Both the position numbers and the translations under genes were made by a program. Positions 28,003-44,500 of a DNA stretch of 46,972 nucleotides are shown here, piece by piece; positions within the stretch are counted from its first letter, which is position 1; each line of letters opens with the position of its first letter. The notes under the pieces were generated by a model that did no database searches, was not told where the DNA came from, and saw nothing but the letters and a program-made list of their open reading frames with translations. This DNA comes from Bacteroidota bacterium (GTDB taxonomy: Bacteria > Bacteroidota > Ignavibacteria > SZUA-365), in the NCBI GenBank assembly GCA_014860565.1, contig JACZJN010000005.1, positions 1-46,972 on the forward strand. The letters run 5' to 3'.

Positions 28003-28281
28003 CAAGGGCGTCCTCTCCTCCGGGCGAGCCTCACCCGGGATTCTTCATGTTGTCACCACTCATTGCGCTGGAACAGGCGTCGTGTATTGCGGTCGGGCAG
28101 GAATTCCATCACCGCTGAAGGAGACGGTGCGTGCGCGAGGGTCCTTGCCCGCATACACGATCCTAATATACGAAGGAATGCACACCGGCGCAGTTTTCAG
28201 GGTCATGGAATTATCGTCCGGTATTTCGTGTTGTTCTTAGATACACCACATACCCGTTTGTCTCATCAAATCCCATGGATC

Positions 28282-28968
28282 ATGAAAAGTACCAGAGAAG
28301 GACGTCCATTCGCCTTCAAGGATTGTGCATTGTCCGCGATCGCCACCGGTCGCCGCGCCCAGAATCTTCGCGAACTGCGCGACCATCTCCTGGAGGTGAA
28401 CGTCGGCAGCCTCTACTATCATTTCTGGGGCGGAAGGCTTCGCCCGCAATTCGACGAACCGGAATACAACAACGATTTCGCAGCCTGGGCGCGCCACTCC
28501 CTGCATGATCACATGATTGCGGAAAGGTTGGCGATGGTTGATCCTATGGACTATGCGTCTCTCGAGGATCTTCGCGGTGAAGTCGTGGAAGTGATCGAGG
28601 AGCGCCTGGCGGAGCAGGAATTCCTTCCCTGGGCGAAGGTGGACGAACAGTTCTCCTTCATCCGCTCGCAGATCGTCGTTTTCGATACACATCGCAGCAT
28701 CGCTGATCCGGCGGAACTCGTACGCGAAATCCCGCATTCCTCCACGAGCAGCATTTTCTATCATTTCATCGATGCGCGGCGCAGGACACCGGACGGTCAG
28801 GACGATTTTTCGACCTGGCTTCGGAGCTTCGGAAGCGTCCACAACGATCTGCTCGCGGCACTGGCGGATGTGGACCCCTACTTCGCCACGCTCGGCGAAC
28901 TTCGGACGCAGCTGTCGAGCGTCGTCGGCGCCTACTTCCCGGACACTACCTCAGGAGGGATCAACTGA
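28282..28968 (+). CDS. Two-repeat DUF5752-like protein heading the trehalose operon
   Basis: A 228-aa cytoplasmic protein. The frame is open further upstream, but MKSTREGRPFAF at 28282 fits the domain start; the ribosome-binding site is weak. The two halves repeat each other: VGSLYYHFWGG...DFAAWARHSLHDHMIAERLAMVDP and TSSIFYHFIDA...DFSTWLRSFGSVHNDLLAALADVDP. Shared features are S-[LI]-[YF]-YHF, DF-x-x-W and L-A-x-VDP followed by L-x-x-LR. I match it to the DUF5752 family, members of which I recall next to trehalose-type glycosyltransferases. It overlaps treT by one base. The molecular role is unknown; a regulatory or scaffolding partner of TreT is a guess from context. Confidence 0.75.
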   Translation: MKSTREGRPFAFKDCALSAIATGRRAQNLRELRDHLLEVNVGSLYYHFWGGRLRPQFDEPEYNNDFAAWARHSLHDHMIAERLAMVDPMDYASLEDLRGEVVEVIEERLAEQEFLPWAKVDEQFSFIRSQIVVFDTHRSIADPAELVREIPHSSTSSIFYHFIDARRRTPDGQDDFSTWLRSFGSVHNDLLAALADVDPYFATLGELRTQLSSVVGAYFPDTTSGGIN

Positions 28969-30206
28969 TGCAGACCCTGAAATCCTATATCGACATCGTC
29001 GGGCATGATGTCATCGATCAGCTGCGGCAGCTGGCCGCGCCCCTGAAGGGCCGCAAAATCGTGCATGTCAATTCCACCCGTATGGGCGGAGGTGTGGCTG
29101 AAATTCTGGCCAAGCTCGTGCCTCTGATGAACGAACTCGGCCTCGACACACACTGGGAAGTCATCAACGGCAATGCGGAGTTCTACCAGTGCACGAAACA
29201 TTTTCACAACGCGCTGCAGGGCAACGCCGTTGCGATTCCCGAGGCGCTGCTTCGCAACTTCGAGGAAGTCAACCGGCAAAACGCCGAGCAGCTCCGGCCG
29301 GCGCTCGAGGACGCCGACGTCGTATTCATCCATGATCCGCAGCCCGCACCGCTGCTCGCATCCTTCCCGCAGCGAAAGGGTAAATGGATCTGGCGCTGCC
29401 ATATCGACGCCAGTCGTCCCCACCGTCCGGTATGGAAGTATCTGCGCGGCTTTCTTTCGGACTATGATGCGAGCATCTGGTCGCTTCCCGATTTTGCGCA
29501 GCCTCTGCCGCACCCGCAATACATCATTCCTCCCAGCATCGATCCACTGAGCGAAAAGAACATCGATTTACCTGAGAGTGAGATCACAGCGGTGTACGAC
29601 CGCTTTGGCATAGATCCGGAGCGTCCTTTAGTGACACAGGTTTCCCGCTTCGACCGCTTCAAGGATCCCGTCGGAGTTATCGAATCCTACCGATTGTCAA
29701 AGCGCTTCCAGCCGGGTTTGCAACTCGTGCTCGCAGGAGGCGGCGCGACCGACGATCCGGAAGGCGAGGTGGTACTCAACGAAGTCTATGCGGCGGCGAA
29801 CGACGATCCGGATATCAAAATTCTGCTTTTACCGTCCGACGCCCATCGCACCATCAATGCGCTGCAGCGTGTCAGCGATATCGTCATGCAGAAATCCACA
29901 CGTGAAGGGTTCGGACTGACGGTCACCGAGGCGATGTGGAAAGGAAAGCCGGTGATCGGTGGAAACACGGGCGGCATCCGTCTGCAGGTGATCAACCATC
30001 ATACGGGCTTCCTGGTGTCGACCCCGGAAGGCGCCGCGCTGCGCACGCGCTACCTGCTGAACCACCGCGACATCCTGGAAAGCATGGGCAATACGGCGCG
30101 CGAATTCGTGCGCGACCATTTTCTGCTTTCACGGCATCTTCGCGAATATCTTACGCTCATGGTTGTGCTGATGAGCGATCACCCTGACAGGGTTGAATTG
30201 TCATGA
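28968..30206 (+). CDS. treT: TreT-type trehalose synthase (GT4 glycosyltransferase)
   Basis: A 412-aa cytoplasmic enzyme. TreT joins NDP-glucose and glucose to trehalose in one reversible step. Supporting sequence: the N-terminal loop HVNSTRMGGGVAEILAKLVP, the acceptor-side WRCHIDASRP, the GT-B donor domain start LVTQVSRFDRFKDP, and the E-x7-E motif region REGFGLTVTEAMWKGKPVIG, followed by GNTGGIRLQV. Length is typical for the family. The ATG overlaps the previous stop (TGATG), and AGGAGGG lies about eight bases upstream. It sits in the same operon as otsA and otsB, so the organism appears to have two routes to trehalose. TreT may run in the degradative direction; this cannot be told from sequence. 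Confidence 0.88.
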   Translation: MQTLKSYIDIVGHDVIDQLRQLAAPLKGRKIVHVNSTRMGGGVAEILAKLVPLMNELGLDTHWEVINGNAEFYQCTKHFHNALQGNAVAIPEALLRNFEEVNRQNAEQLRPALEDADVVFIHDPQPAPLLASFPQRKGKWIWRCHIDASRPHRPVWKYLRGFLSDYDASIWSLPDFAQPLPHPQYIIPPSIDPLSEKNIDLPESEITAVYDRFGIDPERPLVTQVSRFDRFKDPVGVIESYRLSKRFQPGLQLVLAGGGATDDPEGEVVLNEVYAAANDDPDIKILLLPSDAHRTINALQRVSDIVMQKSTREGFGLTVTEAMWKGKPVIGGNTGGIRLQVINHHTGFLVSTPEGAALRTRYLLNHRDILESMGNTAREFVRDHFLLSRHLREYLTLMVVLMSDHPDRVELS

Positions 30207-30228
30207 CGAACGGAAGAGGGGATGCGCG

Positions 30229-31014
30229 ATGACGATACTGAGCGAACAGCTCGATTACGACGCATTCTTCCGCACACTCCGCGCGGCACCTTCACGGCTG
30301 CTGATGCTTGATTATGACGGGACCCTTGCACCCTTCACACCGCACCGCGATCGTGCCACGCCTTTCCCCGGTCTGCGTCCCCTCCTGCAAAAACTCGCCT
30401 CGGAGAAACGATGCCGAACCGTGATCGTCAGCGGCCGTGCCGTGGCGGATCTGCTGCCGCTGCTGCAGCTCAATCCCCTTCCCGAAATCTGGGGCTCCCA
30501 TGGGTGGGAGCGAATGCATGCGGACGGCACCTACACCCCTCCACCCCTGGACGAAAACACCCGGCGGATACTGGCGGAAGAATGGAATTGGCTGAAAGCG
30601 CTGTTTCCCGGCGACCGCATTGAGCAGAAGCCGGCATCCGTGGCGCTGCACTGGCGGGGACTGGAACCGGAAACAGAGGTGACGCTGCGCGGCCTGGCCT
30701 CAAAGCGGTGGAGCAACCTCCTGCTGCATGCTCCGGTCGAAATGCATGCGTTCGACGGCGGTATCGAACTGCGGACCCTCGGACGCAGCAAGGCCGATGC
30801 CGTCCACACGCTGCTGAGCGAATTTCCGACCCCCCCGGCAGCCGCCTATCTCGGCGACGACCAGACGGACGAAGACGCGTTTGCCGCACTCGATGGACGC
30901 GGACTGCGCGTCCTTGTACGTCCCGAACTGCGTCCGACGCGAGCCGATCTGCATCTCACGCCGCCGGATGAATTGATTCGCTTTCTCAACCAATGGATAT
31001 CGCACCTTTCATGA
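30229..31014 (+). CDS. otsB: Trehalose-6-phosphate phosphatase
   Basis: A 261-aa HAD-superfamily phosphatase that removes phosphate from trehalose-6-phosphate. The start at 30229 follows AGGGG by about eight bases; an in-frame ATG-free extension to 30193 is less likely. The nucleophile motif LLMLDYDGTLAPF, motif II TVIVSGR, and the magnesium motif YLGDDQTDEDAFAAL are intact. GSHGWER and the cap region fit the family. The stop overlaps the start of the MscS channel gene, consistent with one transcript. It works with OtsA encoded two genes downstream. Confidence 0.95.
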   Translation: MTILSEQLDYDAFFRTLRAAPSRLLMLDYDGTLAPFTPHRDRATPFPGLRPLLQKLASEKRCRTVIVSGRAVADLLPLLQLNPLPEIWGSHGWERMHADGTYTPPPLDENTRRILAEEWNWLKALFPGDRIEQKPASVALHWRGLEPETEVTLRGLASKRWSNLLLHAPVEMHAFDGGIELRTLGRSKADAVHTLLSEFPTPPAAAYLGDDQTDEDAFAALDGRGLRVLVRPELRPTRADLHLTPPDELIRFLNQWISHLS

Positions 31015-32168
31015 ACATTCTGAACACAACATTCCAGGGTGTCGGGCTCACTGATTGGCTGATCGCACTTGGCATTGCACTCGGAACGGCGCTTATCCTC
31101 ATTTTTACAAAACGTCTGATCGCATCCCGGTTGCTGAAACTGGCCTCGCGCACGACCACCGATGTCGACGACATGCTGGCCGGCCTGGTTGATCATATCA
31201 GTCCTTTGTTTCTGCTCGTTGCCGGACTTTACGTCGGCACCTGGTGGCTCGCGCTCCCCGCCCCGTCCCGCACATTGATCGATCATGTCTTTTTCATCGC
31301 AGCGCTGCTGCAGGCGGGGTACTGGGGAAGCCGTGTGCTGGCATATCTGATCGCCAAGAGCACGCGTCTGCGCGAGTACGAAGACCCTTCCGCGCAAACA
31401 ACCTTGAACGTGCTGGGTTTCATGAGCCGTTTGATGCTCTGGTCGGTGGTACTTCTCGTTATCCTCGATAACCTCGGATTCGATATTACCACGCTGCTTG
31501 CCAGCCTCGGCATCGGGGGCATTGCCGTGGCCCTTGCAGCGCAGGGCATTCTCGCCGAACTGTTCGCTTCGCTTTCGATTGCAATCGACAAACCGTTTGT
31601 CATCGGCGATTTCATTGTCATAGACAGCTATCTCGGCAGCATAGAGAAAATCGGCATGCGCACGACACAGATTCGCAGCCTCAGCGGAGAGCTGATCATT
31701 TTCTCGAACACCGATCTGCTGAAGAGCCGCGTACGCAACTTCAAGCGCATGCAGGAACGGCGTATTCTATTTACACTCGATGTCGTCTACGGCACTTCGT
31801 ATGAAACCGTGAAGCGCATCCCCGATCTGGTACGCAGCATTATTGAGACAGAGGAGATGGCCCGCTTCGATCGGGCACATTTCAAAAGCTACGGCCCTTC
31901 ATCACTGCAGTTTGAATTCGTGTACTACGTACTCTCGCCCGACTACACCGAGTACATGGACGTGCAGCAGCGCATCAATCTTGCGGTCTACCGAACATTC
32001 GAGGAAGAACAGATCGAGTTCGCATTTCCCACCCACACCGTGCACATGCACGCCGTCCGTGGCGCGTCTGGCCGTTCCACGGAGATCCGGACGGATGCGG
32101 ATGCCACGGCCCGGGAACATGTTTCCGATGTTGCGATCGCGGACATAGAGAAGGAGAACCCGTCGTGA
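31011..32168 (+). CDS. MscS-family mechanosensitive channel
   Basis: About 385 aa. The ATG at 31011 overlaps the otsB stop (ATGA); an in-frame ATG at 30993 would overlap more. Four to five hydrophobic helices span residues ~10-200. The MscS core is clear: pore helix with LLASLGIGGIAVALAAQGIL, then FASLSIAIDKPFVIGDFIVI and the beta-domain around STQIRSL-like TTQIRSLSGELIIFSNTDLL. A C-terminal cytoplasmic domain (RRILFTLDVVYGTSYETVKR) follows. The channel would release solutes on hypo-osmotic shock. It lies between otsB and otsA with 4-base overlaps on both sides, tying solute synthesis and release together at the level of expression. The conducted solute cannot be stated; trehalose is only a possibility. 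Confidence 0.9.
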   Translation: MNILNTTFQGVGLTDWLIALGIALGTALILIFTKRLIASRLLKLASRTTTDVDDMLAGLVDHISPLFLLVAGLYVGTWWLALPAPSRTLIDHVFFIAALLQAGYWGSRVLAYLIAKSTRLREYEDPSAQTTLNVLGFMSRLMLWSVVLLVILDNLGFDITTLLASLGIGGIAVALAAQGILAELFASLSIAIDKPFVIGDFIVIDSYLGSIEKIGMRTTQIRSLSGELIIFSNTDLLKSRVRNFKRMQERRILFTLDVVYGTSYETVKRIPDLVRSIIETEEMARFDRAHFKSYGPSSLQFEFVYYVLSPDYTEYMDVQQRINLAVYRTFEEEQIEFAFPTHTVHMHAVRGASGRSTEIRTDADATAREHVSDVAIADIEKENPS

Positions 32169-33676
32169 ACGAAAGTATACAGCAAACACCGGGGCGACTG
32201 GTCATTGTCTCGAACCGCCTCCCGGTCGTGCTTGAGCGCAGCGAGGGCACACTGACGACGCGTCCCGGTTCAGGCGGTCTGGTCACCGCACTGGCGCCGG
32301 TGTTGCGTGACCGCGGCGGTATCTGGATCGGATGGTCAGGAATGCCCGACGACGTGCAGAAGGAGGTTGATCATGTGCTCACGGACTCCTCCCTTTCGGC
32401 AGGCTACACGTTGAAGGCCGTGCCGCTCAGCGGGCAGGAATTCGAGGATTATTACCAGGGATTCGCGAACGAGATTCTCTGGCCGCTGTTTCACGATTTG
32501 CAGTCGCACTGTCATTTCGATCCGGCATACTGGACGGCATACAGAAGCGTCAACCGAAAATTCGCCTCCCACATTCGTGACACGGTGGAAGCGGCGGATT
32601 TTATCTGGGTGCACGATTACCATCTCATGCTTGCGGCAGCGGAGCTTCGCGGGATGGGAGTGGAGAATCCGCTCGGATTCTTCCTGCATATCCCCTTTCC
32701 GCCTCCTGATATCTTTTTCAAACTGCCCTGGCGGTTCCAGATCCTGAGTTCCATGCTCGCCTTCGACCTTATCGGATTCCAGACCATGCGTGACAAGCGC
32801 AATTTCGTGCAGTGCGTGCGCATGCTGCTGCCCGGCACTTCCGTGCGCAGCGAAGGCGGTTTTCACGTGCTGCGGCATGACGCGCGGGAAGTGCGCGCCG
32901 GGGTGTTTCCGATCAGCATCGATTACGGGGAATTCGAGCGGCGCGCGCGCGGACGCGAGGTCGCGGAATCCGCGTGGTACATTCACGAAGCGCTCCCCGA
33001 CAGGCAGATCGTACTCGGCGTTGACCGCCTCGATTACACCAAAGGCATTCCCTACCGTCTCAAGGCCTTCCGCAGCGCGCTGCGTCACCACCCGGAGCTG
33101 CTGGAGAAGATTACTCTTGTGCAGGTGGTCGTGCCCAGTCGCATCGATATCCCGAAGTACAATGATCTGAAAATCGAAATCGAGCAGCTGGTCGGCGAGA
33201 TCAACGGTGAGTTCACCCGTTCCGGCTGGGTGCCTATTCACTACATCTTCCGCCATCTCACGCGCGGCGAACTGCTCGGGTATTACCGTACCGCGGAAAT
33301 CGCCCTTATCACTCCGGTGAAGGATGGGATGAATCTGGTTGCGAAAGAATACATCGCCTGCAATCTCGAAGCCAATGGCGTGCTGATACTCAGCGAGTTC
33401 GCCGGTGCGGTCGCGCAGCTGCACCGAGACGCGCTGCTCGTCAATCCGTACGACATCGAAGGGATGGGAAACGCCATATACAATGCCTTCAGCATGTCCC
33501 CCGCCGAGCGCAAAAGGCGCATGCACCGGCTTCGCGCGACCGTGCGACGCTACGACATCTACCGCTGGGTCGAGGCATTCCTTGAAGCGGCGGTCTCGCG
33601 ACACCTGCAGGACTTCCCTGTCGTCTCGGAGTACATCCCGCCCGCGGATTCCCCCGACATCGGCGTGTCCATCTGA
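32165..33676 (+). CDS. otsA: Trehalose-6-phosphate synthase (GT20)
   Basis: A 503-aa cytoplasmic enzyme making trehalose-6-phosphate from UDP-glucose (or another NDP-glucose) and glucose-6-phosphate. It starts at a GTG that overlaps the MscS stop (GTGA), with AAGGAG about eight bases upstream. Diagnostic motifs: VIVSNRLPVVLE, the glycine loop PGSGGLVTAL, VHDYHLMLAAAEL, FFLHIPFPPPDIF, the substrate-binding LGVDRLDYTKGIPYRLKAF and PVKDGMNLVAKEYIACN. Length is normal. It closes the DUF5752-treT-otsB-mscS-otsA operon; the product is hydrolysed by OtsB. Confidence 0.96.
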   Translation: MNESIQQTPGRLVIVSNRLPVVLERSEGTLTTRPGSGGLVTALAPVLRDRGGIWIGWSGMPDDVQKEVDHVLTDSSLSAGYTLKAVPLSGQEFEDYYQGFANEILWPLFHDLQSHCHFDPAYWTAYRSVNRKFASHIRDTVEAADFIWVHDYHLMLAAAELRGMGVENPLGFFLHIPFPPPDIFFKLPWRFQILSSMLAFDLIGFQTMRDKRNFVQCVRMLLPGTSVRSEGGFHVLRHDAREVRAGVFPISIDYGEFERRARGREVAESAWYIHEALPDRQIVLGVDRLDYTKGIPYRLKAFRSALRHHPELLEKITLVQVVVPSRIDIPKYNDLKIEIEQLVGEINGEFTRSGWVPIHYIFRHLTRGELLGYYRTAEIALITPVKDGMNLVAKEYIACNLEANGVLILSEFAGAVAQLHRDALLVNPYDIEGMGNAIYNAFSMSPAERKRRMHRLRATVRRYDIYRWVEAFLEAAVSRHLQDFPVVSEYIPPADSPDIGVSI

Positions 33677-34683: not shown

Positions 34684-36519
34684 TTATTTCATGATGAGGT
34701 ACCCGTATGGCGGAAGGGTGATGCGCAGACTGTCGCCGACTTGCTGCACACGCGCCGAGGCAAGCAGGACTTCGCCCTCGAGGTCATCCGGCGTAGCGCA
34801 GGTGAACGCTGTTTCCAAAGCCGTGAGGTTGACCGCGGTAAATACCGGCATCGCTTCGTCAATGGTACGCGAGAACGCAAACACCGCCGTACTGTCTCCC
34901 ACCGACAGAATATGCATATCGCCTCTGCGGGCGGACTGCTGCGCTGCCCGAATGGAATTGAGGTCGGTGTAGAGAACGCGGAAGGCGAGCGAATCCACCG
35001 ACCAGTCGATCGTTTCCTTTTCAAATAGGCTGAGACGTTTGTCGCTCCCGGTTTCTTGGCCGTTGTAGATCAACGGCACCCCGGGAAGCATGTGCATCAG
35101 CACGGCGCAGGCGCGCGCGGCGCCAGGCCCGAGCCAGAGCAGCGGCGGCGCGTCGTATTTGTTCTTGTCGTGATTCGTCGTGAAGCGGAGATGCATGGCC
35201 CCACGCGGATACCGGAATTTTTCACGGAGCAACGTGGCGCTGATTTCGGTCATGGGCACTTTGCCGAAAATGATCGGCCGGAGCATGTCATACGTGCTCC
35301 ATGCATACGTGAGATCGAACGCATCAATGTGCAGCTTGGGATCGGCGCCCTCGGCGAGCATCATGACGGGCTTGATCTCTCGGAGGGCCGCGATGGCGTC
35401 GACCCAGAAATCATGGGGCACGAGTTCCGCCACGTCGCAGCGGAAGCCGTCGATACCGATGTCGCGCACCCAGTACAGCATCATCTCCTTCATCCACGCG
35501 CGCAATTCCGGTACGTCGTAGTTCAGTCCTGCCACGTCGCTCCAGTCCGGGTTCGGTGCGATGATGCGGCCCTCGTCATCCTTCCTGTACCATTCCGGGT
35601 GTTCGGTGATCAGCGGATTGTCCCACGCCGTGTGATTCGCCACGAGATCCATGATCAGATGCATGCCCTGCACATGCGTGGCAGCGACGAGCGATTTGAA
35701 ATCGTCAAGCGTCCCGAATTCCGGATTGACGGCGTAGAAGTCCTGCACGGAATACGGACTTCCCAGGCTTCCCTTGCGATTCAATTTTCCGACGGGATGA
35801 ATCGGCATCAGCCATACGACTGTCACACCCATGTCGCGCAGTTCCGGCAGCCGCTGTTCCAGCGCCTTGAACGTGCCTTCTTTCGAAAACGCGCGAAGAT
35901 ACACTTCATACACTACCGCGTCACGTACCCAGTCGGCGCTTTCCACCGGTTTTATGCCATAATATTCGCTGCGCAGAAGTTCTTCTTCTTTTTCGAACGC
36001 GCGCAATTCAACGCTGCCGATCAGTCCGCCCGGACCCGCGATATCCTCGATCCGCACAGCGAGGACGTTGCCTTTCGCTTTCACCGTTTTCGTCACATCG
36101 AAATAAAAGCGCTGACCGTACCCCATGTGCGAACCGATCTTCTCGCCGTTGAGCCAGATCTCGGCGTTGTCGTCGACCGCTTCAAAGATAAGCGCATGCG
36201 ATATTCCTGTATCAATCTCGGCGTCGAAGCGGCGGAGGTACCAGCCCAGACCGTCGTACCCGGCGAGACGCTGCTGCTGATCCCAGCTGCCGGGCACGGC
36301 GAGCGTATCCCAGCCCTCGCTCCCGCTGCCGAGATACCAGTGTCCCTTCTCCCCCACGTTGTCAGGGTCGATGCGAAATTGCCAGGTGCCGTTGAGACTG
36401 AGCGAGTAGCGGTCGAGTGGCATGCTGTCCGGATCCTTGAGTCTGCATGAAACAAAAGCGAGCGCGGCAAACAGCAGCAGCGTAACGGTGCGAACGGACG
36501 AAGGCAGCGGGCGTATCAT
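34684..36519 (-). CDS. GH13 alpha-amylase-family lipoprotein with N-terminal jelly-roll domain
   Basis: A 611-aa protein. The ATG at 36519 follows GGAG by nine bases and begins a lipoprotein signal (LLLFAALAFVSC, Cys ~24), so it is probably anchored in the envelope. Residues ~35-185 resemble the sugar-binding jelly-roll of GH2 enzymes (LNGTWQFRID, VPGSWDQQQ, EIWLNGEKIGSH). The GH13 barrel follows, with all four motifs: DLVANH, GIDGFRCDVAEL (nucleophile Asp), MLAEGADP (acid Glu) and TNHDKNKYD. Activity is expected on alpha-glucans such as maltodextrin or glycogen-like substrate; hydrolase versus transferase cannot be told. It lies 31 bases after the phosphofructokinase gene on the same strand, so the two are probably co-transcribed. 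Confidence 0.9.
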   Translation of the reverse strand: MIRPLPSSVRTVTLLLFAALAFVSCRLKDPDSMPLDRYSLSLNGTWQFRIDPDNVGEKGHWYLGSGSEGWDTLAVPGSWDQQQRLAGYDGLGWYLRRFDAEIDTGISHALIFEAVDDNAEIWLNGEKIGSHMGYGQRFYFDVTKTVKAKGNVLAVRIEDIAGPGGLIGSVELRAFEKEEELLRSEYYGIKPVESADWVRDAVVYEVYLRAFSKEGTFKALEQRLPELRDMGVTVVWLMPIHPVGKLNRKGSLGSPYSVQDFYAVNPEFGTLDDFKSLVAATHVQGMHLIMDLVANHTAWDNPLITEHPEWYRKDDEGRIIAPNPDWSDVAGLNYDVPELRAWMKEMMLYWVRDIGIDGFRCDVAELVPHDFWVDAIAALREIKPVMMLAEGADPKLHIDAFDLTYAWSTYDMLRPIIFGKVPMTEISATLLREKFRYPRGAMHLRFTTNHDKNKYDAPPLLWLGPGAARACAVLMHMLPGVPLIYNGQETGSDKRLSLFEKETIDWSVDSLAFRVLYTDLNSIRAAQQSARRGDMHILSVGDSTAVFAFSRTIDEAMPVFTAVNLTALETAFTCATPDDLEGEVLLASARVQQVGDSLRITLPPYGYLIMK

Positions 36520-36550
36520 GGAACGGTCTCCGGGAAACGGGTGAGGATGA

Positions 36551-37723
36551 TCAGTCGCCGAAGCTGATGCCGAGGTCGCGGGCGGTGAGCATGGTGTCGC
36601 AGTCGAGGGGAACAACCTTCATCCGGCTCGTGGCCTTTTTCAGCGGCACGTAACGCACGGTCGGTGGATCGAGTGCCACCATGACGCCGCTCTGCCCCCT
36701 TTCGAGCGCACGAATGGCCGCGGCGCCGAAGCGCAGCGACAGCAAGCGGTCGAAGGTCGTGGGCGAGCCGCCGCGCTGAAGGTGCCCAAGCACGACATGG
36801 CGTGATTCCTGACCGGTGATTTCCTGCAGTTGTTTCGCGACGGTTTCGCCGATGCCGCCGAGACGCTCGGCACGCCCGATTTCATGTTCGAGTACGCTGC
36901 GCGTTCCTCCTTTCGGCTTGGCACCTTCGGCGACCACGACGATGGAGAACTTCCTTCCCTGTTTGACGCGCTCGACGGTCTTGCGTGCGACGATGTCGAT
37001 ATCGTAGGGAATCTCCGGTATCAGAATTGCGTCGGCCGTGCCGGAAACACCTGCGTTCAGCGCAATCCAGCCGGCATAGCGTCCCATCACTTCGACCACC
37101 ATGATGCGGCGATGTGCCTCCGCGGTGGAATGCAGGCGATCGAGACATTCGGTTGCGAATGAGACCGCGCTGTCGAAGCCGAAGGTCGAGACCGTTTCGC
37201 TCAGATCGTTGTCGATGGTTTTCGGTACACCGACGATGCGGAGTCCTTTTTCGTAGAGTGCATTGGCGATGGAGAGCGAACCGTCGCCCCCGATCGCCAC
37301 GACCGCGTCGATTCGGTTTTTCCTGCATGCGCGAATGATTTCTCCGCTGCGGTCTATCGTCTTGTAGCTGCCGTCCTTCTGCAGTACCGGGAATTCCAGC
37401 GGATTGCCCTTGTTCGTCGTTCCCAGAATCGTTCCGCCGAGATGCGTGATACCGCGCACAGCTTCGAGAGTAAGGGGGATGATTCCCCCGTCGGGATAGT
37501 CATTCGGCATGAGTAGTCCGTTATACCCGTCGCGTATCCCCACGACCTCCCATCCGCGATGAATGGCGCCGATGGTCACGGCGCGGATCACGGCGTTGAG
37601 TCCGGGAGCGTCGCCACCGCCGGTATTTATGGCGATGCGACGGATGCGTACGGTTTTCCCGATTTTTTTGACGGTGGAAGGGGTGGTGTTTGCTGAGGAA
37701 TCTGGCTTTGACCTGCGCGGCAT
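36551..37723 (-). CDS. pfkA: 6-phosphofructokinase (PfkA superfamily, mixed-signature type)
   Basis: About 390 aa; phosphorylates fructose-6-phosphate in glycolysis. Key motifs: TGGGDAPGLNAVIRA, the nucleotide site VAIGGDGSLSIA, PKTIDNDL, VVEVMGRYAGWIAL and LGHLQRGGSPTTFDRLL. The Gly in GGDGS usually marks ATP use, while the Lys in PKTIDND is usual for pyrophosphate enzymes and for the mixed group III. ATP use is therefore more likely but not certain. The start is uncertain: the ATG at 37723 is used here, with a further in-frame ATG at 37765, and neither has a good ribosome-binding site. Both give a ~30-residue basic, Ser/Thr-rich extension before the first strand (VRIRRIAINTGGG), longer than usual. 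First gene of a pair with the GH13 lipoprotein. Confidence 0.93.
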   Translation of the reverse strand: MPRRSKPDSSANTTPSTVKKIGKTVRIRRIAINTGGGDAPGLNAVIRAVTIGAIHRGWEVVGIRDGYNGLLMPNDYPDGGIIPLTLEAVRGITHLGGTILGTTNKGNPLEFPVLQKDGSYKTIDRSGEIIRACRKNRIDAVVAIGGDGSLSIANALYEKGLRIVGVPKTIDNDLSETVSTFGFDSAVSFATECLDRLHSTAEAHRRIMVVEVMGRYAGWIALNAGVSGTADAILIPEIPYDIDIVARKTVERVKQGRKFSIVVVAEGAKPKGGTRSVLEHEIGRAERLGGIGETVAKQLQEITGQESRHVVLGHLQRGGSPTTFDRLLSLRFGAAAIRALERGQSGVMVALDPPTVRYVPLKKATSRMKVVPLDCDTMLTARDLGISFGD

Positions 37724-37864
37724 GAGGGGTATTCTCGTGTTTCTGATACTTGTGATGAATAACAAATCTAACCGTGCCCGGCCTCGAACACAAACGAGTT
37801 GTTTTTTATCGCGTCGCTCCGTATTAGTTTAGTGTTCTTCAACAATTGCGATCAGGGTATTGCC

Positions 37865-40800
37865 ATGAATGTTCCGATATTCTTTGCCCTCATGGGCGGC
37901 ATCATCCTGCTCGGTTTCCTGGCCAACCTGCTGTTCAAATGGACCAAGATTCCGAGCGTGCTGCTGCTGATGGGCATCGGCGTGTTTCTCGGCCCCGTCA
38001 CTGGCTGGCTGGCCTCGGATGCCCTGCTCACCATCGCACCGTATTTCGGAACGATGGCGCTCCTGATCATCCTGTTCGAAGGCGGACTCGAACTCGACAT
38101 CCGCACCGTGGTACAGCAGGCGCCCAAGGCCGCCGTGCTTGCCGTCGGCGTCTTTGTCGTCAGTGTCGTGCTGATCATGTGTTTCGGCATTTTCGTTATG
38201 GACATGAGTACGCTCAACGCCCTGATCCTGGCCGCCGTGCTCGGCGCGACGAGTCCGGCGATCTGCATTCCGGTGGTGTCGGGACTCAGCGTACGCAACG
38301 AAATCAAGACGATCGTGAAGCTCGAGTCCGCATTGGGAGACGTGCTGCTTATCGTTTCGGTATTGCTGCTGCTCGATTTCCATGTCTCGGGCACGCAGGG
38401 CGTCGGCAGCGTGCTCATGAGCTTCGTCACGAGCTTCGGCGTGGCGCTGGTCATCGCGACGGTTACCGGCGCGCTTTGGTCGCGGCTCATCGCATGGATG
38501 GGCAAGGAACCGCTTGCGTACATGCTCACGCTGGGCTTCATCTTCCTGCTCTATTTCATGGTGGAGGAACTGCACGGCAGTGCCGCGATCGCAGTGCTGA
38601 TGTTCGGTCTCATTCTCGAAAACATGCAGGTGATGACCGATCACATTGGCATCCGACTCCGTCAATTCTTCGGCATCGACATCAAGTCGGAGAAGTTCGT
38701 TCTCAACCAGTTCATCAAGAACATCACCGAAGAGATCTCCTTTCTGCTCCGCACCTTTTTCTTCGTCTACCTCGGGATGCTGCTCGACTTCGACGAACTG
38801 ACATGGACCATCGGCCTGTTCATTCTCGGAATGACCTTGCTGCTGCTTGTCGGACGACGCCTCCTGATGATCGGCTTCCGCCGCATCGGAAAGGATTTCA
38901 CCGAAGGTGAGCTGCAAGCCATCATGGCGATGCTGCCGCGCGGACTCGCCACCGCGGTCATGGCACTGCTGCCCTTTCAGACCGGCCATATCCCCGGTAC
39001 CGAGCTGTTCCCGATGTACGCCTTCGGCGTTATCGTGCTGACGAATCTCTACATGACCGGAAGCGTGATGTTTGCCGAGCGACGCCTGAAGTCGGAGCGG
39101 CTGCGCAGTGCGGAACCCCTTCCCGTCGGCTACGCGGGGGAAACCGCGGCCGGGGAGATCCTGTTCGAAAAAGCACCCGCCGCTCCTTCGCTTGCCGATG
39201 CTGCCGCCATTGACGCTGCCGCTCACGCCGAGGCGGGTTCCGCCAGCGGGGAACACGGGACGCAGGTCGACGAACCGCAGGTGGATCGCGAGGAGCACAC
39301 GACCACCGAGGGCATGGGCGCCGCGCGCCCGACATACGATGAGCGATATCCACCGTTCGAAGCCGCGCTGTTTTCGGCCGAGGATGAGCGCGAAGCGGAG
39401 CCGCCGCCGCAAACCTTCACGGAATGGATGGCGCGAATTTTCGGCATCCACAGCGGCGACCGCGAACGCGGCTATCTCGAGGCCTACCGCGCGGCGCATA
39501 TCACCGAACCCCTGTACTGGGTGCAGATCATGCTCGCCGCCGGCATTACCACGCTTGGGCTCATCCTCGACCAGAGCGCGATCATCATCGGCGGTGCGCT
39601 GATCATGCCGATCATGTTTCCCGTTCTCGCTGCGGGACTTTCCCTCGCGTCCGGAGATCTGTACCTACTGATCCGTATTTTCTTCAAAGTCGCGCTGACC
39701 GTTTTCATCGTCGGTATGATCTCCGCAATCCTGTCCGATCTCCTTCCCTTCGCCGAAGTGACAAAGGAAATCGCGGCGCGGACGCGTCCGACGGTCATCG
39801 ATTTCCTCGTCGCACTTTTCGCCGGCATGGCGGGAGCGGCGACGCTGTCGCGAAAAAACCGTTTCGTGCAGTTTCTCCCTGCCGCCATCATCGCCATCAC
39901 GCTGCTTCCGCCGATTGCCGTCATGGGTTTCGGCATCGCCAACGGCGGTTCGCCCGAAATCATCCAGGGCGGAGCCCTGCTGTTCACGGCCAATTTCTTC
40001 GCCAACATCCTTGGCGCCATGATCGTCTTTCTGCTCGTGGGCATGCCGAAGGCCGCGACGGTCGATGTCGTGCGGAAATGGAAAGAAAAGGAACTCGCGC
40101 ACCCGGTCATCAGCATCGTATTCGAGAAGCTGCGCCTCAGCCAGGTGGTCGGACGCACGGGTTCGGTGCGCGCCCGCTTCTTTGTCATCGCGCTTTTCCT
40201 GCTCATACTGATGATTCCGCTGCAGAGCGCACTCAATCAGCTCACGCTCGAGCTGCGCGCCCGGCAGGCGATATCGGAGATCGCGCGCGCATTCGACATC
40301 AAATACCGTTCGAGCCTCATCAACACTTCCTCGCGCATCAGCGACGATCTGATCGAAGTGAAGCTGCAGGTAGCGACCAACAGCTTTTTCACTTCCGCCG
40401 ACATCGCCCGATTCGAGGAACGCGTATCGGACCGCACCGGTGTTCCAACACGACTCGATCTCGTGCAGTCCCTCAGTGATATCGGAAAGGGCAGTACGGT
40501 CAGCGAACTGCTGACGCCCTCCTCTACCGGGTCCGCGTTCAGCACGCGCACGTTTTCGGAAGCTGTCGGCGATCTCCGCTTCCAGGCCCAGAGCATACTG
40601 CGCAGCATCCCCCTTTCGAGCCGTCTTGAAATCGTGAGCATGAATGCGGAGCTGACGCTCGATACACTGAGTCCGGCGATCAATTTCATCTACCTCTCCG
40701 ACGAACCGCTGACGGAGGACGCACGGGATATTCTCGGCACACTCATCGCCGGACGCCTGTCACTTCCGGCAAACAGCCTGCAGTTCAACTGGTTTTCGAA

Positions 40801-41140
40801 TCGCTATGCCTTCGATGTCGCGAGCAGGATGGAATTCAATGCCGCGGACCGGGTGCGCCTACGCAATCTGAATAACCTGCTCATGCGCTATCCGCAGCTC
40901 GCGCTCTCCTTGCAGTTCCCTGAAGTGGACCGCGGTGCATACCGTTTCGAGCCGCAGATGGCCGAGCTGCTTGATCACGTCCCGCTGGCCGCGGACAGCA
41001 CGCGCGTGACCGTACGCCTTGTCGCTGCCCCACGCGACAGCCTCGTGGCGCGGCTCAGCGTCAAGGGCCTGCTGCCGAGCAGTGGAGCGGGCAAAACCCG
41101 CCCCATGACGCCGGGCGACAACGGCAATCAGACGCGATGA
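37865..41140 (+). CDS. Cation/proton antiporter fused to a DUF389 membrane domain
   Basis: A 1091-aa membrane protein; the ATG at 37865 starts a transmembrane segment and is preceded by AGGG. Residues ~1-410 are a CPA-type monovalent cation/proton antiporter of about 12 helices (PSVLLLMGIGVFLGP, GATSPAICIPVVSGL, ESALGDVLLIVSVLLLL, MLPRGLATAVMALL). The position that is usually N-D or D-D reads G-D. An acidic, low-complexity linker (~430-545) carries no obvious fold. A DUF389 domain (~560-760) follows: WVQIMLAAGITTLGLI, SAIIIGGALIMPIMFPVLAA, TLLPPIAVMGFG. One more helix (~780-800) then leads to a ~280-residue soluble tail of unknown fold. The substrate ion is unknown. The frame is uninterrupted across all parts, so the fusion is real unless mis-assembled. 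Confidence 0.87.
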   Translation: MNVPIFFALMGGIILLGFLANLLFKWTKIPSVLLLMGIGVFLGPVTGWLASDALLTIAPYFGTMALLIILFEGGLELDIRTVVQQAPKAAVLAVGVFVVSVVLIMCFGIFVMDMSTLNALILAAVLGATSPAICIPVVSGLSVRNEIKTIVKLESALGDVLLIVSVLLLLDFHVSGTQGVGSVLMSFVTSFGVALVIATVTGALWSRLIAWMGKEPLAYMLTLGFIFLLYFMVEELHGSAAIAVLMFGLILENMQVMTDHIGIRLRQFFGIDIKSEKFVLNQFIKNITEEISFLLRTFFFVYLGMLLDFDELTWTIGLFILGMTLLLLVGRRLLMIGFRRIGKDFTEGELQAIMAMLPRGLATAVMALLPFQTGHIPGTELFPMYAFGVIVLTNLYMTGSVMFAERRLKSERLRSAEPLPVGYAGETAAGEILFEKAPAAPSLADAAAIDAAAHAEAGSASGEHGTQVDEPQVDREEHTTTEGMGAARPTYDERYPPFEAALFSAEDEREAEPPPQTFTEWMARIFGIHSGDRERGYLEAYRAAHITEPLYWVQIMLAAGITTLGLILDQSAIIIGGALIMPIMFPVLAAGLSLASGDLYLLIRIFFKVALTVFIVGMISAILSDLLPFAEVTKEIAARTRPTVIDFLVALFAGMAGAATLSRKNRFVQFLPAAIIAITLLPPIAVMGFGIANGGSPEIIQGGALLFTANFFANILGAMIVFLLVGMPKAATVDVVRKWKEKELAHPVISIVFEKLRLSQVVGRTGSVRARFFVIALFLLILMIPLQSALNQLTLELRARQAISEIARAFDIKYRSSLINTSSRISDDLIEVKLQVATNSFFTSADIARFEERVSDRTGVPTRLDLVQSLSDIGKGSTVSELLTPSSTGSAFSTRTFSEAVGDLRFQAQSILRSIPLSSRLEIVSMNAELTLDTLSPAINFIYLSDEPLTEDARDILGTLIAGRLSLPANSLQFNWFSNRYAFDVASRMEFNAADRVRLRNLNNLLMRYPQLALSLQFPEVDRGAYRFEPQMAELLDHVPLAADSTRVTVRLVAAPRDSLVARLSVKGLLPSSGAGKTRPMTPGDNGNQTR

Positions 41141-41237: not shown

Positions 41238-41381
41238 TGACCCGAGACGGCAGACGCGCTGACGCGTGTGATGAAACGCGCTGACGTGCGAAATCAGAGA
41301 CGTCGACCTTGCGACTGCTGCAGCGTTTGGCTATTTTACCAACTCACGAAAATTCATTTTCACTCTGGAAAACCCCGTCTT

Positions 41382-42173
41382 ATGGCAGATTACCAGAAAC
41401 ACCTGTACATGATCGTTTTTCCGATCAATGCGCTGGTCGCATCGCAGCTCGAACCCAATGCGTTCGCCCAGCATTACACCATCGGCAGTGCCCGTCACTT
41501 CCAGGGCAAAGTCATTTTCGCCGAACTCGACGTCACCTTTCGCGATCCGTATTTCAAGATCGACGAGTATCTGGAGCGGACTGTCGCGCATGAAGACGGC
41601 ACCCCCAAGCGCACGAAATTCATCTCTTCGTACCGTGTGCTCGAGCATGTGCCTTTCAACATCATCAAGAAGCTGTATCTGGTCACGGTCAACGGCAAGG
41701 CGCTCGAGCTGAGCCCGGGCCCCTACACTGCCGAGAACGTGCCAGGCCTCATCCGCATCTTCCAGGAAGTCGCACCCGTGCGCAACCTGATCGCATCGCG
41801 CCTCGATCAGCGCTCCTTCGGCAAGTACATCACCGAAGACACCGCGAAGGGCGCTTCGAAATTCTGTTTCACGCAGATCGATCTCAACATCGAGGAGTTC
41901 CTCGCCGAGAGCAGGCACCGCGAGGTGATCGTATCGCCCATTCCCGACAGCAATCCCTACCGCCTGCTCGACTGCCTGACGGAGTTGCAGCAGAATACCG
42001 ACAAGACGGTGAAAACGATCAGTCTGTCGTCGGTGCTGCACAGTATTTCCTATCGCGTGCTCCGGCATGGATTCTGGTTCTTCGACAAGGACGGGAAGGA
42101 ATTGTTTTTCCCGATTCCCAGCGCGCATGAACTGGAAACCACGCATTACGAATGGTGGAAAAACGCCCGGTAG
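41382..42173 (+). CDS. Unknown cytoplasmic protein with internal duplication
   Basis: A 263-aa protein without signal peptide or membrane segment; I do not recognise the family. The start at 41382 (MADYQKHLYMIVFPINAL) is the first ATG after an AT-rich, promoter-like stretch; the open frame upstream runs through repeats. The two halves look alike: NALVASQLEPNAFAQHYTIG with RNLIASRLDQRSFGKYITED, then FKIDEYLE with LNIEEFLAE, and SSYRVLEHVPFNI...VNGKALEL with ISYRVLRHGFWFF...KDGKELFF. Each unit is about 110-120 aa, ending in a beta-rich segment. It lies 71 bases before aconitase, but the inverted repeat between them suggests separate control. Confidence 0.75.
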   Translation: MADYQKHLYMIVFPINALVASQLEPNAFAQHYTIGSARHFQGKVIFAELDVTFRDPYFKIDEYLERTVAHEDGTPKRTKFISSYRVLEHVPFNIIKKLYLVTVNGKALELSPGPYTAENVPGLIRIFQEVAPVRNLIASRLDQRSFGKYITEDTAKGASKFCFTQIDLNIEEFLAESRHREVIVSPIPDSNPYRLLDCLTELQQNTDKTVKTISLSSVLHSISYRVLRHGFWFFDKDGKELFFPIPSAHELETTHYEWWKNAR

Positions 42174-42244: not shown

Positions 42245-44500
42245 ATGACGATGAATTTTGACATGATTCAGCGTGCGTATTCCGCGTTTCCCGGAAAGAT
42301 CGCATCCGCGCGCGCCCTGCTGGGCCGCCCGCTGACCTATACGGAAAAGATTCTGTATTCCCATCTGTGGGAGACACCCGAAGCGCCGCTGGGACGGGGC
42401 AAGGACTACGCGAACTTCGGTCCCGACCGCGTCGCCATGCAGGACGCCACCGCGCAGATGGCGCTGCTGCAGTTCATGAGCGCCGGCATCCCGAAAGTCG
42501 CCGTTCCTTCCACGGTCCACTGCGACCATCTCATCCTCGCCGAGCACGGCGCGAAGCAGGATCTGACGTCCTCCCTCGACCTCAACCGCGAGGTGTTCGA
42601 TTTCCTCGCCTCGGTGTCGAAGAAATACGGCATCGGCTTCTGGAAGCCGGGCGCGGGCATCATCCACCAGGTCGTGCTCGAGAACTACGCCTTCCCCGGC
42701 GGCATGATGATCGGCACCGATTCGCACACCCCCAACGCGGGCGGACTCGGCATGGTCGCCATCGGTGTCGGCGGCGCGGACGCGGTGGACGTGATGGCCG
42801 GCATGCCCTGGGAACTGAAATTCCCGAAACTCATCGGTGTCAAGCTGACCGGGAAACTGAGCGGCTGGACATCCCCGAAAGACATCATCCTCAAGCTCGC
42901 GGGCATTCTCACTGTCAAGGGCGGCACGGGCGCCATCGTCGAATATTTCGGCGACGGCTGCGCGAACATCTCCGCCACGGGCAAGGGCACGATCTGCAAC
43001 ATGGGTGCGGAAATCGGCGCCACGACCTCGGTCTTCCCCTACGACGCGAAGAGCGCCGCCTACCTGCGCAGCACTGCGCGCGCCGACCTGGCGGATCTCG
43101 CCGACGGCATCGCCGCGCATCTGCAGGCCGACCCCGAAGTCGCCGCCGATCCGGAAAAGTACTACGACCAGGTGATTCACATCGACCTCGACACGCTCGA
43201 GCCGCATGTGAACGGTCCCTTCACCCCCGACCGCGCGCATCCGATCTCGGAATTCGCGAAAGCCGTGCGGGAAAACGGCTGGCCCGAGGAATTGCGCGTC
43301 GCGCTGATCGGCTCCTGCACCAATTCCAGTTACGAGGACATCGACCGCGTGGCCGCGATCGCGCGCCAGGCGAAGGAGAAGTCCCTGCTGACGAAATCCG
43401 AATTCACCATCACACCCGGTTCGGAGCAGGTGCGCGCGACCATCGAACGCGACGGACAGCTGGCACTGCTCGAGAGCATCGGCGGACAGGTGCTCGCCAA
43501 TGCCTGCGGTCCCTGCATCGGCCAGTGGAAGCGCCACGACGTGCAGAAGGGCGATCGCAACTCGATCATCACCTCCTTCAACCGCAACTTCACCGGACGC
43601 AATGACGGCAATCCCGACACGCATGCCTTCGTGGCCAGTCCGGAAACCGTCGCGGCCCTCGCGCTCGCCGGCACGCTGACCTTCGACTTCACGAAAGAGA
43701 CGCTGGTCAACGAGAAGGGCGAAACCGTGCGTCTCGACGCCCCGACCGGCGACGAACTTCCCGTACAGGGCTTCGTGCCTGATCCCGACGGCCTTGTTCC
43801 CCCGGCGGAAGACGGCAGCGGCGTCAGCGTGGTGGTCGATCCGGCGAGCAACCGCCTGCAGGTGCTCACGCCCTTCGCCCCCCCGCAGCCGGGAGAATAC
43901 GACAACCTGCGCCTGCTGCTGAAGGTGCGCGGCAAGTGCACGACCGACCACATTTCCATGGCGGGTCCGTGGCTGCGTTTCCGCGGACACCTCGACAACA
44001 TCTCGAACAACATGTTCATCGGCGCGATCAACGAATACAACGGCGTGCCGAACAAGGTGAAGAACCAGATCACCGGCGAATACGACGAAGTACCCAACGT
44101 GGCCCGCGCCTACAAAGCGGCCGGCGACGGCTGGGTCGTGATCGGCGACGAGAATTACGGTGAGGGTTCGAGCCGCGAACATGCGGCGATGGAGCCGCGT
44201 CATCTCGGCGGCAAGGCCATCATCGTCAAGTCCTTCGCCCGCATCCACGAGACCAATCTCAAGAAGCAGGGCATGCTACCGCTGACATTCGCCGATCCGG
44301 CGGACTACGCGAAAATCCAGGAAGACGACCGCATCAAGCTCGATGTGGCCAGCCTGGCACCGGCTACACAGATGACGATGACCGTCATGCATGCCGATGG
44401 TTCGAGCGACACCGTCATGCTCAACCACACGATGAATGCACAGCAGATCGAGTGGTTCCATGCCGGCAGCGCGCTCAACCTGATCGCGCGGGGGAAATAA
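42245..44500 (+). CDS. Aconitate hydratase (mitochondrial-type)
   Basis: A 751-aa 4Fe-4S enzyme interconverting citrate and isocitrate in the TCA cycle. Hallmarks: [45 protein letters not shown], the cluster cysteines in [10 protein letters not shown] (~358) and [10 protein letters not shown] (~420 and 423), and the swivelling domain with [35 protein letters not shown] and [17 protein letters not shown]. Length and order match the mitochondrial ACO2-like class rather than AcnB. GGAG lies nine bases before the ATG, inside an inverted repeat. A strong terminator follows the stop. Confidence 0.96.

Follow-up and report, generated by a model that had tools for sequence, protein, structure and literature searches.

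NhaP-type antiporters of the CPA1 group, such as PaNhaP and MjNhaP1, have 13 transmembrane segments (TM), and KefC, a K+/H+ exchanger whose large C-terminal control module is an RCK domain, belongs to the CPA2 group. In SLC9C1, a Na+/H+ exchanger of sperm, the antiporter is followed by a second membrane domain. The excerpted sources describe this second domain as voltage-sensing and part of the same chain (PMC10620092), KefC as having one main acidic residue in TM6, with no aspartate named for the break in TM5 (PMC11150392), and UmpAB of Halomonas, found by a salt-tolerance screen, as a pair of DUF1538 membrane proteins reported as Na+(Li+,K+)/H+ antiporter (PMC5484666). Here, we describe a gene that joins an antiporter of the CPA type to a DUF389 membrane domain in a protein of 1091 residues. 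It lies on contig JACZJN010000005.1 of a Bacteroidota bacterium (GCA_014860565.1), of which a stretch of 46,972 nucleotides, called the window, was analysed. For DUF389, the literature search found no described function and no paper joining it with an antiporter, and none for TIGR00341; the fusions reported in excerpts of the haloarchaeal composite-gene literature are others, and, of the papers naming DUF389, one lists such a gene as over-expressed and another gives it as 'unknown function'.

The fusion gene (Table 1) is open from its ATG to its stop codon. An alternative TTG start upstream would give 1113 instead of 1091 residues; because the start M[ND]VxIFF... was conserved in all seven full-length fusions of the window's own family (f1), the ATG was kept. 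Pfam assigned Na_H_Exchanger (PF00999) to residues 17-394 (128.9 bits, curated cut-off 26.2, E 2.9e-37) and DUF389 (PF04087) to residues 579-713 (82 bits, curated cut-off 23.9, E 5.4e-23). Hydropathy analysis gave 13 TM, a gap of 145 residues (405-549), 7 TM and a tail of 301 residues (791-1091), thereby confirming that antiporter, acidic linker, DUF389 and soluble tail stand in one intact frame, as the initial annotation had read them. Residues 421-520 of the linker contain 22 Asp or Glu and 5 Lys or Arg. By the positive-inside rule the linker is predicted to face the cytoplasm and the tail the periplasm, and the topology of the full-length protein is likewise a prediction; the same hydropathy method gave 12-13 plus 6-7 TM for three fusions from other families. 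Four sequence matches in the PDB, which belong to MjNhaP1 (4czb) and PaNhaP (4cza), spanned the antiporter half only. The protein stayed below the cut-offs of the NCBIfam model for NhaP2/CvrA K+/H+ antiporter equivalogs, PRK05326 (best of three models 90.3 vs 355 bits), of TIGR00271 (91.5 vs 146.5 bits) and of TIGR00341 (61.1 vs 94.75 bits). Models of defence systems gave no match, and no antiporter relatives in viral contigs were confirmed.

With NhaP-type CPA1 antiporters the fusion shares the PF00999 fold family, an E154-R331 pair, an acid equivalent to D159 and 13 predicted TM; it differs by TSP in place of TDP, by GD (GE, AD) in place of ND, and by the C-terminal DUF389 domain and tail. 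It resembles KefC in its one main TM6 acid, in a TM5 break without a listed Asp and in carrying a large C-terminal module, but this module is itself a membrane domain, no RCK domain was found by Pfam at E<=10, and the score for the CPA2 model TIGR00932 was far below the cut-off (24.2 vs 238.3 bits). The combination of an antiporter with a second membrane domain recalls SLC9C1, and the link of a DUF membrane protein to cation/proton exchange recalls UmpAB; however, neither the second domain of SLC9C1 nor the UmpAB family is related to DUF389. The stand-alone DUF389/TIGR00271/TIGR00341 proteins of the phylum that were inspected share with the fusion the DUF389 core, the final TM and a soluble tail; the DUF389 of the fusion is more divergent, joined to an antiporter and followed by a longer tail.

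The same domain order was found elsewhere. A profile of 12 fusions, searched against 391 genomes of the class, detected 13 full-length fusions in four families, of which f1 accounts for seven, f59 for three, f62 for two and f60 for one; contig ends cut two more (G009, G573). Among the 12 genomes of f1, seven had the full fusion, G009 only its C-terminal part at a contig edge, G007 only a stand-alone DUF389 protein, and three no match. A DUF389 search of 294 class genomes added five frames of 1030-1102 residues, all of which proved to be antiporter-DUF389 on reading, and one of 296 phylum genomes gave no further frame long enough for an antiporter fusion. The first impression of a fusion limited to one family was overturned by the fusions of the other class families. 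An 896-residue frame in G258 was rejected as a second fusion, being a read-through of a high-GC (guanine plus cytosine) frame over what is really a stand-alone gene; in the G564 fusion a TAG was flagged inside the match, yet the present frame still codes for 1027 residues. In a 12-row alignment, the 11 other fusions were 35-86% identical to that of the window over the whole length, tail included. Linker length varied among them, the frame staying open throughout, so that the halves are not always separate and the linker, in the assembled sequences, shows neither of the interruptions, stop or frameshift, that the initial annotation had thought of. Judged by these comparisons, the fusion is real, old, conserved and wider than one genome.

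For its history, trees were calculated for the antiporter (31 rows) and for DUF389 (38 rows, including nine fused domains). The 13 fused antiporters formed one clade (98/99) with two unfused antiporters of f3, a separate family that shares its order with f1 and is represented by three genomes; inside this clade, f3 stood beside f1 (98/97). All nine fused DUF389 domains used were monophyletic (100/99), with the stand-alone protein L054 from another lineage as sister. These groupings come from midpoint-rooted trees with flagged long outgroup branches and, for DUF389, an unsettled bootstrap. Two of the three f3 genomes encode an entire antiporter without fusion partner (432 and 438 residues), directly followed by aconitase, the third being cut at a contig edge, and the DUF389 search of class genomes found DUF389 in none of the three. 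Since the fused DUF389 domains are monophyletic and the fused antiporters form one clade with f3, a single origin is favoured, and one old fusion whose DUF389 half f3 subsequently lost would be the simplest account; two separate fusions would be a less likely alternative. That f3 represents the ancestral unfused state was set aside, since f3 groups with f1 within the fused clade and the fused DUF389 domains are monophyletic.

The association with antiporters extends to stand-alone DUF389 genes. DUF389 was present in 118 of 296 sampled phylum genomes, at 124 places, and about 11 kb (less at contig ends) were examined around 80 of these; the choice was blind to neighbours, but long frames and outliers were taken first. 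As controls, 80 stretches of 11 kb were used, drawn from the majority of these genomes, some of which served twice or more. CPA antiporters occurred in 8/80 DUF389 neighbourhoods vs 2/80 controls (p 0.049), NhaA in 6/80 vs 0/80 (p 0.014), either of the two in 12/80 vs 2/80 (Fisher p 0.005), and MscS in 7/80 vs 1/80 (p 0.03), while histidine kinases, the comparison family, showed no excess (13 in cases vs 17 in controls). A CPA profile rebuilt from seeds outside the case set left the counts unchanged; for NhaA and MscS, the profiles derived from case proteins. From genome-wide PF00999 counts, 0.70 CPA loci near DUF389 would be expected vs eight seen (P 5e-7), a value that takes 79 loci as independent and uniform; of the eight, one pair comes from a single genus and another pair from a single family. 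By the coordinates of the open reading frames, the antiporter was the adjacent gene in nine loci, being CPA in L074, L090, L105, L110 and L115 and NhaA in L074, L093, L098, L103 and L104. At 15 further stand-alone loci of the class, CPA frames lay within 5 kb in two, adjacent at 78 bp in L266 and 2.4 kb off and split over two frames in L273. Plasmids gave 37 records matching the DUF389 half; 13 regions were looked at, 12 of them annotated, and a Na+/H+ antiporter was listed in 3 of these 12 by an incomplete gene table: a Caulobacter plasmid has the order DUF389-antiporter-channel-MscS with the antiporter adjacent, a Hymenobacter swuensis plasmid has NhaA, DUF389 and antiporter consecutively, and in the Hymenobacter DG25B plasmid one gene separates DUF389 from the antiporter. 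These neighbourhoods support, independently of the fusion, a link between DUF389 and both the CPA and the NhaA family of Na+/H+ antiporters, and the fusion is one end of this wider link, in which DUF389 and Na+/H+ antiporters meet in ion-related gene clusters. The suggestion of the initial annotation that the fusion hints at a role of DUF389 in ion transport or its control gains in either form from this tie.

Some further observations concern the same loci. One antiporter-free plasmid neighbourhood carries SulP and chloride-channel genes. On an Acinetobacter blaNDM-1 plasmid and an Enterococcus faecium plasmid (L217, L230), TIGR00341/DUF389 genes are flanked by recombinase or insertion sequence genes and are apparently mobile. 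A permease gene, presumably MlaE-like, was near DUF389 in 9/80 loci vs 0/80 controls (L075, L083, L117, L118, L123-L126, L130); as several of these loci belong to related genomes, the arrangement may reflect common descent. Two long Na_H_Exchanger frames, with 945 (G044:C1:2154002) and 966 residues (G118:C26:448), are perhaps other antiporter fusions.

The ion site of the antiporter half was compared with PaNhaP. Window residues T129, S130, P131, E154, S155, G158 and D159 fell on the PaNhaP residues of the same number, with S130 on D130 and G158 on N158; R331 corresponds to R337 of PaNhaP, and E73 of PaNhaP falls on G73. Among the 12 aligned fusions, S130 was invariant within TSP (or ISP), so that the TDP of CPA1 is missing, and positions 158-159 read GD, GE or AD instead of ND, G-E replacing G-D in two of the seven f1 fusions. 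An Asp or Glu at 159, E154 and R331 were present in 12/12, that is, the TM6 acid of CPA1 and its E154-R337 pair are retained. In all 28 subfamily members compared (13 fused, three of f3 and 12 unfused distant relatives, with seven further profile-matched places outside the set), neither the TDP Asp nor the ND Asn is present, and position 159 is Asp or Glu. The G-D that the initial annotation had singled out as atypical is indeed there, but since 12/12 unfused distant relatives also lack the Asn (G-E, S-D or T-D), it is a trait of the subfamily and not a mark of the fusion. Each of the eight antiporters that neighbour a stand-alone DUF389 gene among the 80 loci has both TDP and ND. In the sister proteins L006 and L007, both D159 and D598 of DUF389 are replaced by Glu and T129 by Ile, probably in one shared event. 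By its site residues, the antiporter half is a member of a non-canonical CPA subfamily. In PaNhaP, according to the excerpt of PMC4381880, the ion is bound directly by D159 and E73 and via water by D130, N158 being no ligand, and transport is abolished by D130S or D159S and raised by E73A. For KefC, the excerpt of PMC11150392 names Q155, D156, T127 and the S125 carbonyl as K+ ligands and lists no TM5 aspartate. A site with one main acid is therefore workable, and by analogy the antiporters of the subfamily may operate with such a site as KefC does.

The DUF389 half is less constrained than the antiporter. Between f1 and f59/f60/f62, identity was 46-50% for the antiporter, 32-33% for the TM part of DUF389 and 22-24% for the tail, and the fused DUF389 domains are among the most divergent, scoring 82-88 bits in f1 and 43-45 bits in f59/f60/f62 vs mostly 105-174 bits. 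In 81 stand-alone DUF389 proteins, 25 columns were >=95% identical, E635, R639, D646 and P682-P683 being near-invariant. These five residues and N710 were kept in all seven f1 fusions, which did not keep all other signature columns (P586 in 2/4 checked). The six rows of f59/f60/f62 kept G565, P582, G654 and G688 in 6/6 and D646 in 5/6; E635 was kept in 0/6, R639 in 2/6, P682 in 4/6, P683 in 3/6 and N710 in 4/6.

Within DUF389, hhalign detected an internal repeat of TM2-TM3 against TM5-TM6 over 44 columns (score 23.5, E 7e-4; HHalign probability 26%), compared with a mean of 10.5 and a maximum of 18.4 in 200 column shuffles. The three-TM offset implies inverted copies, which are common in many channels and transporters, and the repeat thus suggests a pore or transporter fold. 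The AlphaFold2 (AF2) model of the DUF389 half had a mean pLDDT (predicted local distance difference test) of 60, with 65-86 up to about residue 730 and 49-70 thereafter. A Foldseek search of the PDB with this half was empty at E<=0.001, and zinc transporters came closest, with E 0.014 and above and TM-scores of 0.26 or less. In VIA-align, the top rows were the FNT proteins 3te2 (Z 11.2, root-mean-square deviation (rmsd) 4.1, 200 residues) and 7mxy (Z 10.8, rmsd 4.9, 212 residues) and the aquaporin 2o9f (Z 10.6, rmsd 3.4, 171 residues), although values of Z below about 13 can be frequent among unrelated helical bundles and the model is the one with pLDDT 60. FNT and aquaporin folds consist of a 3+3 inverted repeat with a broken second helix in each repeat. 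No sequence homology of DUF389 to FNT or MIP proteins was detected, as the hhalign score was below the shuffle mean for the FNT profile (9 proteins) and was reached by 1/60 shuffles for the MIP profile (30 proteins); on the model, a likeness of DUF389 to FNT and aquaporin folds is a hypothesis. The start of the tail (residues about 788-870; 284-366 of the model) aligned with a domain of a ribosomal protein, which we take to be S3, over about 80 residues (Z 9-9.6). The confidence of the model is uneven there, and the match may reflect no more than a common alpha/beta arrangement.

The surroundings of the gene were analysed in f1 (Table 1). A DUF5752 gene precedes the trehalose genes (window 27856-33676), and DapF, the amylase-like gene and phosphofructokinase lie between OtsA and the fusion gene. 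G008 and G005 keep the entire order from the trehalose genes through the 301-residue gene and aconitase; G010 keeps it except for the amylase-like gene (no match), its 301-residue gene being present, and the retrieved pieces of G011, G001 and G002 show it for the parts covered. The 301-residue gene was found in 7/7 other f1 genomes having the fusion or part of it. At the f3 locus L009, a gap of about 310 bp is too small for this gene, whose gain or loss may have coincided with that of the DUF389 half.

Table 1. Positions of the fusion gene, its parts and its neighbours in the window.
Feature	Position	Strand	Remarks
Whole fusion gene	37865..41140	+	1091 residues plus stop; open from ATG to stop
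CPA antiporter domain	37865..39076	+	residues 1-404, 13 predicted TM; PF00999, hydropathy, PDB matches 4czb/4cza
TM5 T129-S130-P131 instead of CPA1 TDP	38249..38257	+	aligned to PaNhaP T129-D130-P131
TM6 E154-S-A-L-G158-D159 instead of ESxxND	38324..38341	+	aligned to PaNhaP E154/S155/N158/D159
Linker	39077..39511	+	residues 405-549; acidic, variable length, predicted cytoplasmic; composition, positive-inside rule, alignment
DUF389 membrane domain	39512..40234	+	residues 550-790, about 7 TM; PF04087, hydropathy
DUF389 repeat, first copy	39563..39694	+	TM2-TM3, about residues 567-610, bounds approximate; hhalign half 1 vs half 2
DUF389 repeat, second copy	39857..39991	+	TM5-TM6, about residues 665-709, bounds approximate; hhalign half 1 vs half 2
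Tail	40235..41137	+	residues 791-1091, alpha/beta, predicted periplasmic; low-confidence model
Osmoprotection island (TreT, OtsB, MscS, OtsA)	28968..33676	+	order shared with G008, G005, G010
TreT	28968-30206	+	Pfam
OtsB	30193-31014	+	Pfam
MscS channel	30993-32168	+	Pfam; between OtsB and OtsA
OtsA	32165-33676	+	Pfam
Amylase-like gene	34684-36615	-	N-terminal GH2 sugar-binding domain
Phosphofructokinase	36551..37765	-	divergent neighbour upstream of fusion
301-residue conserved gene	41268..42173	+	no Pfam match; between fusion and aconitase
Aconitase	42245..44500	+	conserved downstream neighbour; also adjoins the unfused f3 antiporter

Regarding function, we put at about even the chances that the fusion is a monovalent cation (Na+ or K+)/H+ antiporter whose DUF389 module tunes or complements the exchanger in ionic and osmotic homeostasis. 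The antiporter half would exchange Na+ or K+ for H+ via its acidic TM6 site (D159, or Glu), the cytoplasmic linker would tether it to the DUF389 membrane domain, and the periplasmic tail would face the cell envelope; DUF389 would most likely adjust or complement the exchanger in response to the state of the envelope, to osmotic conditions or to ions, and stand-alone DUF389 proteins would do likewise as distinct proteins teamed with NhaP- and NhaA-type antiporters. In favour of this reading are the conservation of the fusion in four families and its probable single origin, the antiporter and MscS genes around stand-alone DUF389 and on plasmids, the f1 gene block with trehalose synthesis and MscS, the retained site residues and the stronger conservation of the antiporter half. 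Such an ancillary role within the fusion is favoured because the DUF389 half was lost in f3 and its signature residues decayed in f59/f60/f62. The same two observations, as well as the lower conservation of DUF389 and tail, would also suit a DUF389 half that serves mainly as a scaffold or membrane/envelope anchor stabilising, clustering or localising the antiporter, with no sensing or transport of its own; we regard this as rather unlikely, as against it stand the six signature residues kept in all f1 fusions and the neighbourhood links of stand-alone DUF389, which suggest a function of its own. Several findings weigh against tuning of an active antiporter by DUF389. The matched-control p-values are modest, for CPA alone in particular, and related genomes are not independent; 68/80 DUF389 neighbourhoods had no CPA or NhaA antiporter, and 9/12 annotated plasmid neighbourhoods list no Na+/H+ antiporter in the incomplete gene table. 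Searches with 14 other proteins of the window found no match within 10-12 kb around the f59, f60 and f62 fusions, so that the trehalose/MscS context is a trait of f1. No interface between the two halves was seen in the full-length AF2 model, whose mean pLDDT was 45. Finally, antiporter activity cannot be presumed, because D130S inactivates PaNhaP and the subfamily naturally has Ser or Ala at this position.

Taken to its extreme, the last point would turn the antiporter half into a transport-dead, sensor-like CPA fold that controls DUF389, in line with the loss of the TDP Asp and ND Asn from all 28 subfamily members; the retention of the acid at 159, E154 and R331 in every aligned fusion and the K+ binding of KefC with no listed TM5 aspartate (PMC11150392, excerpt) make this very improbable. 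It appears possible, if doubtful, that DUF389 forms a pore or transporter in its own right, built on a 3+3 inverted-repeat fold of the FNT/aquaporin kind and moving an anion, small solute or water, and that the fusion combines this flux with cation/H+ exchange in a single chain. The internal repeat, which exceeded all shuffles, favours such a fold, and the VIA-align ranking and the near-invariant residues of the stand-alone proteins point the same way, whereas the low HHalign probability, Z values usual for helical bundles on a model of modest confidence, the empty Foldseek result, the lack of any FNT or MIP profile match exceeding the shuffles and the decay of several signature residues in f59/f60/f62 fusions that nevertheless kept the domain speak against it. 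A version in which the chain is an exchanger plus channel, the DUF389 pore carrying a balancing anion, weak acid or solute and being gated by the tail under osmotic or pH stress, we consider unlikely. That the fusion is an artefact of assembly, or that two genes were joined in frame by chance, has a practically negligible probability, being ruled out by the occurrence of the 13 full-length fusions in separately assembled genomes and by the alignment of 11 others with that of the window.

With DUF389 widespread in the phylum and on plasmids, the old fusion to an antiporter and the clustering with antiporters lead to a testable hypothesis of a role in salt, pH and osmotic balance. The fusions, the natural loss in f3 and the operon pairs are natural constructs for such tests, and the subfamily, lacking two textbook residues of the CPA1 site, can be used to test which site residues are needed.

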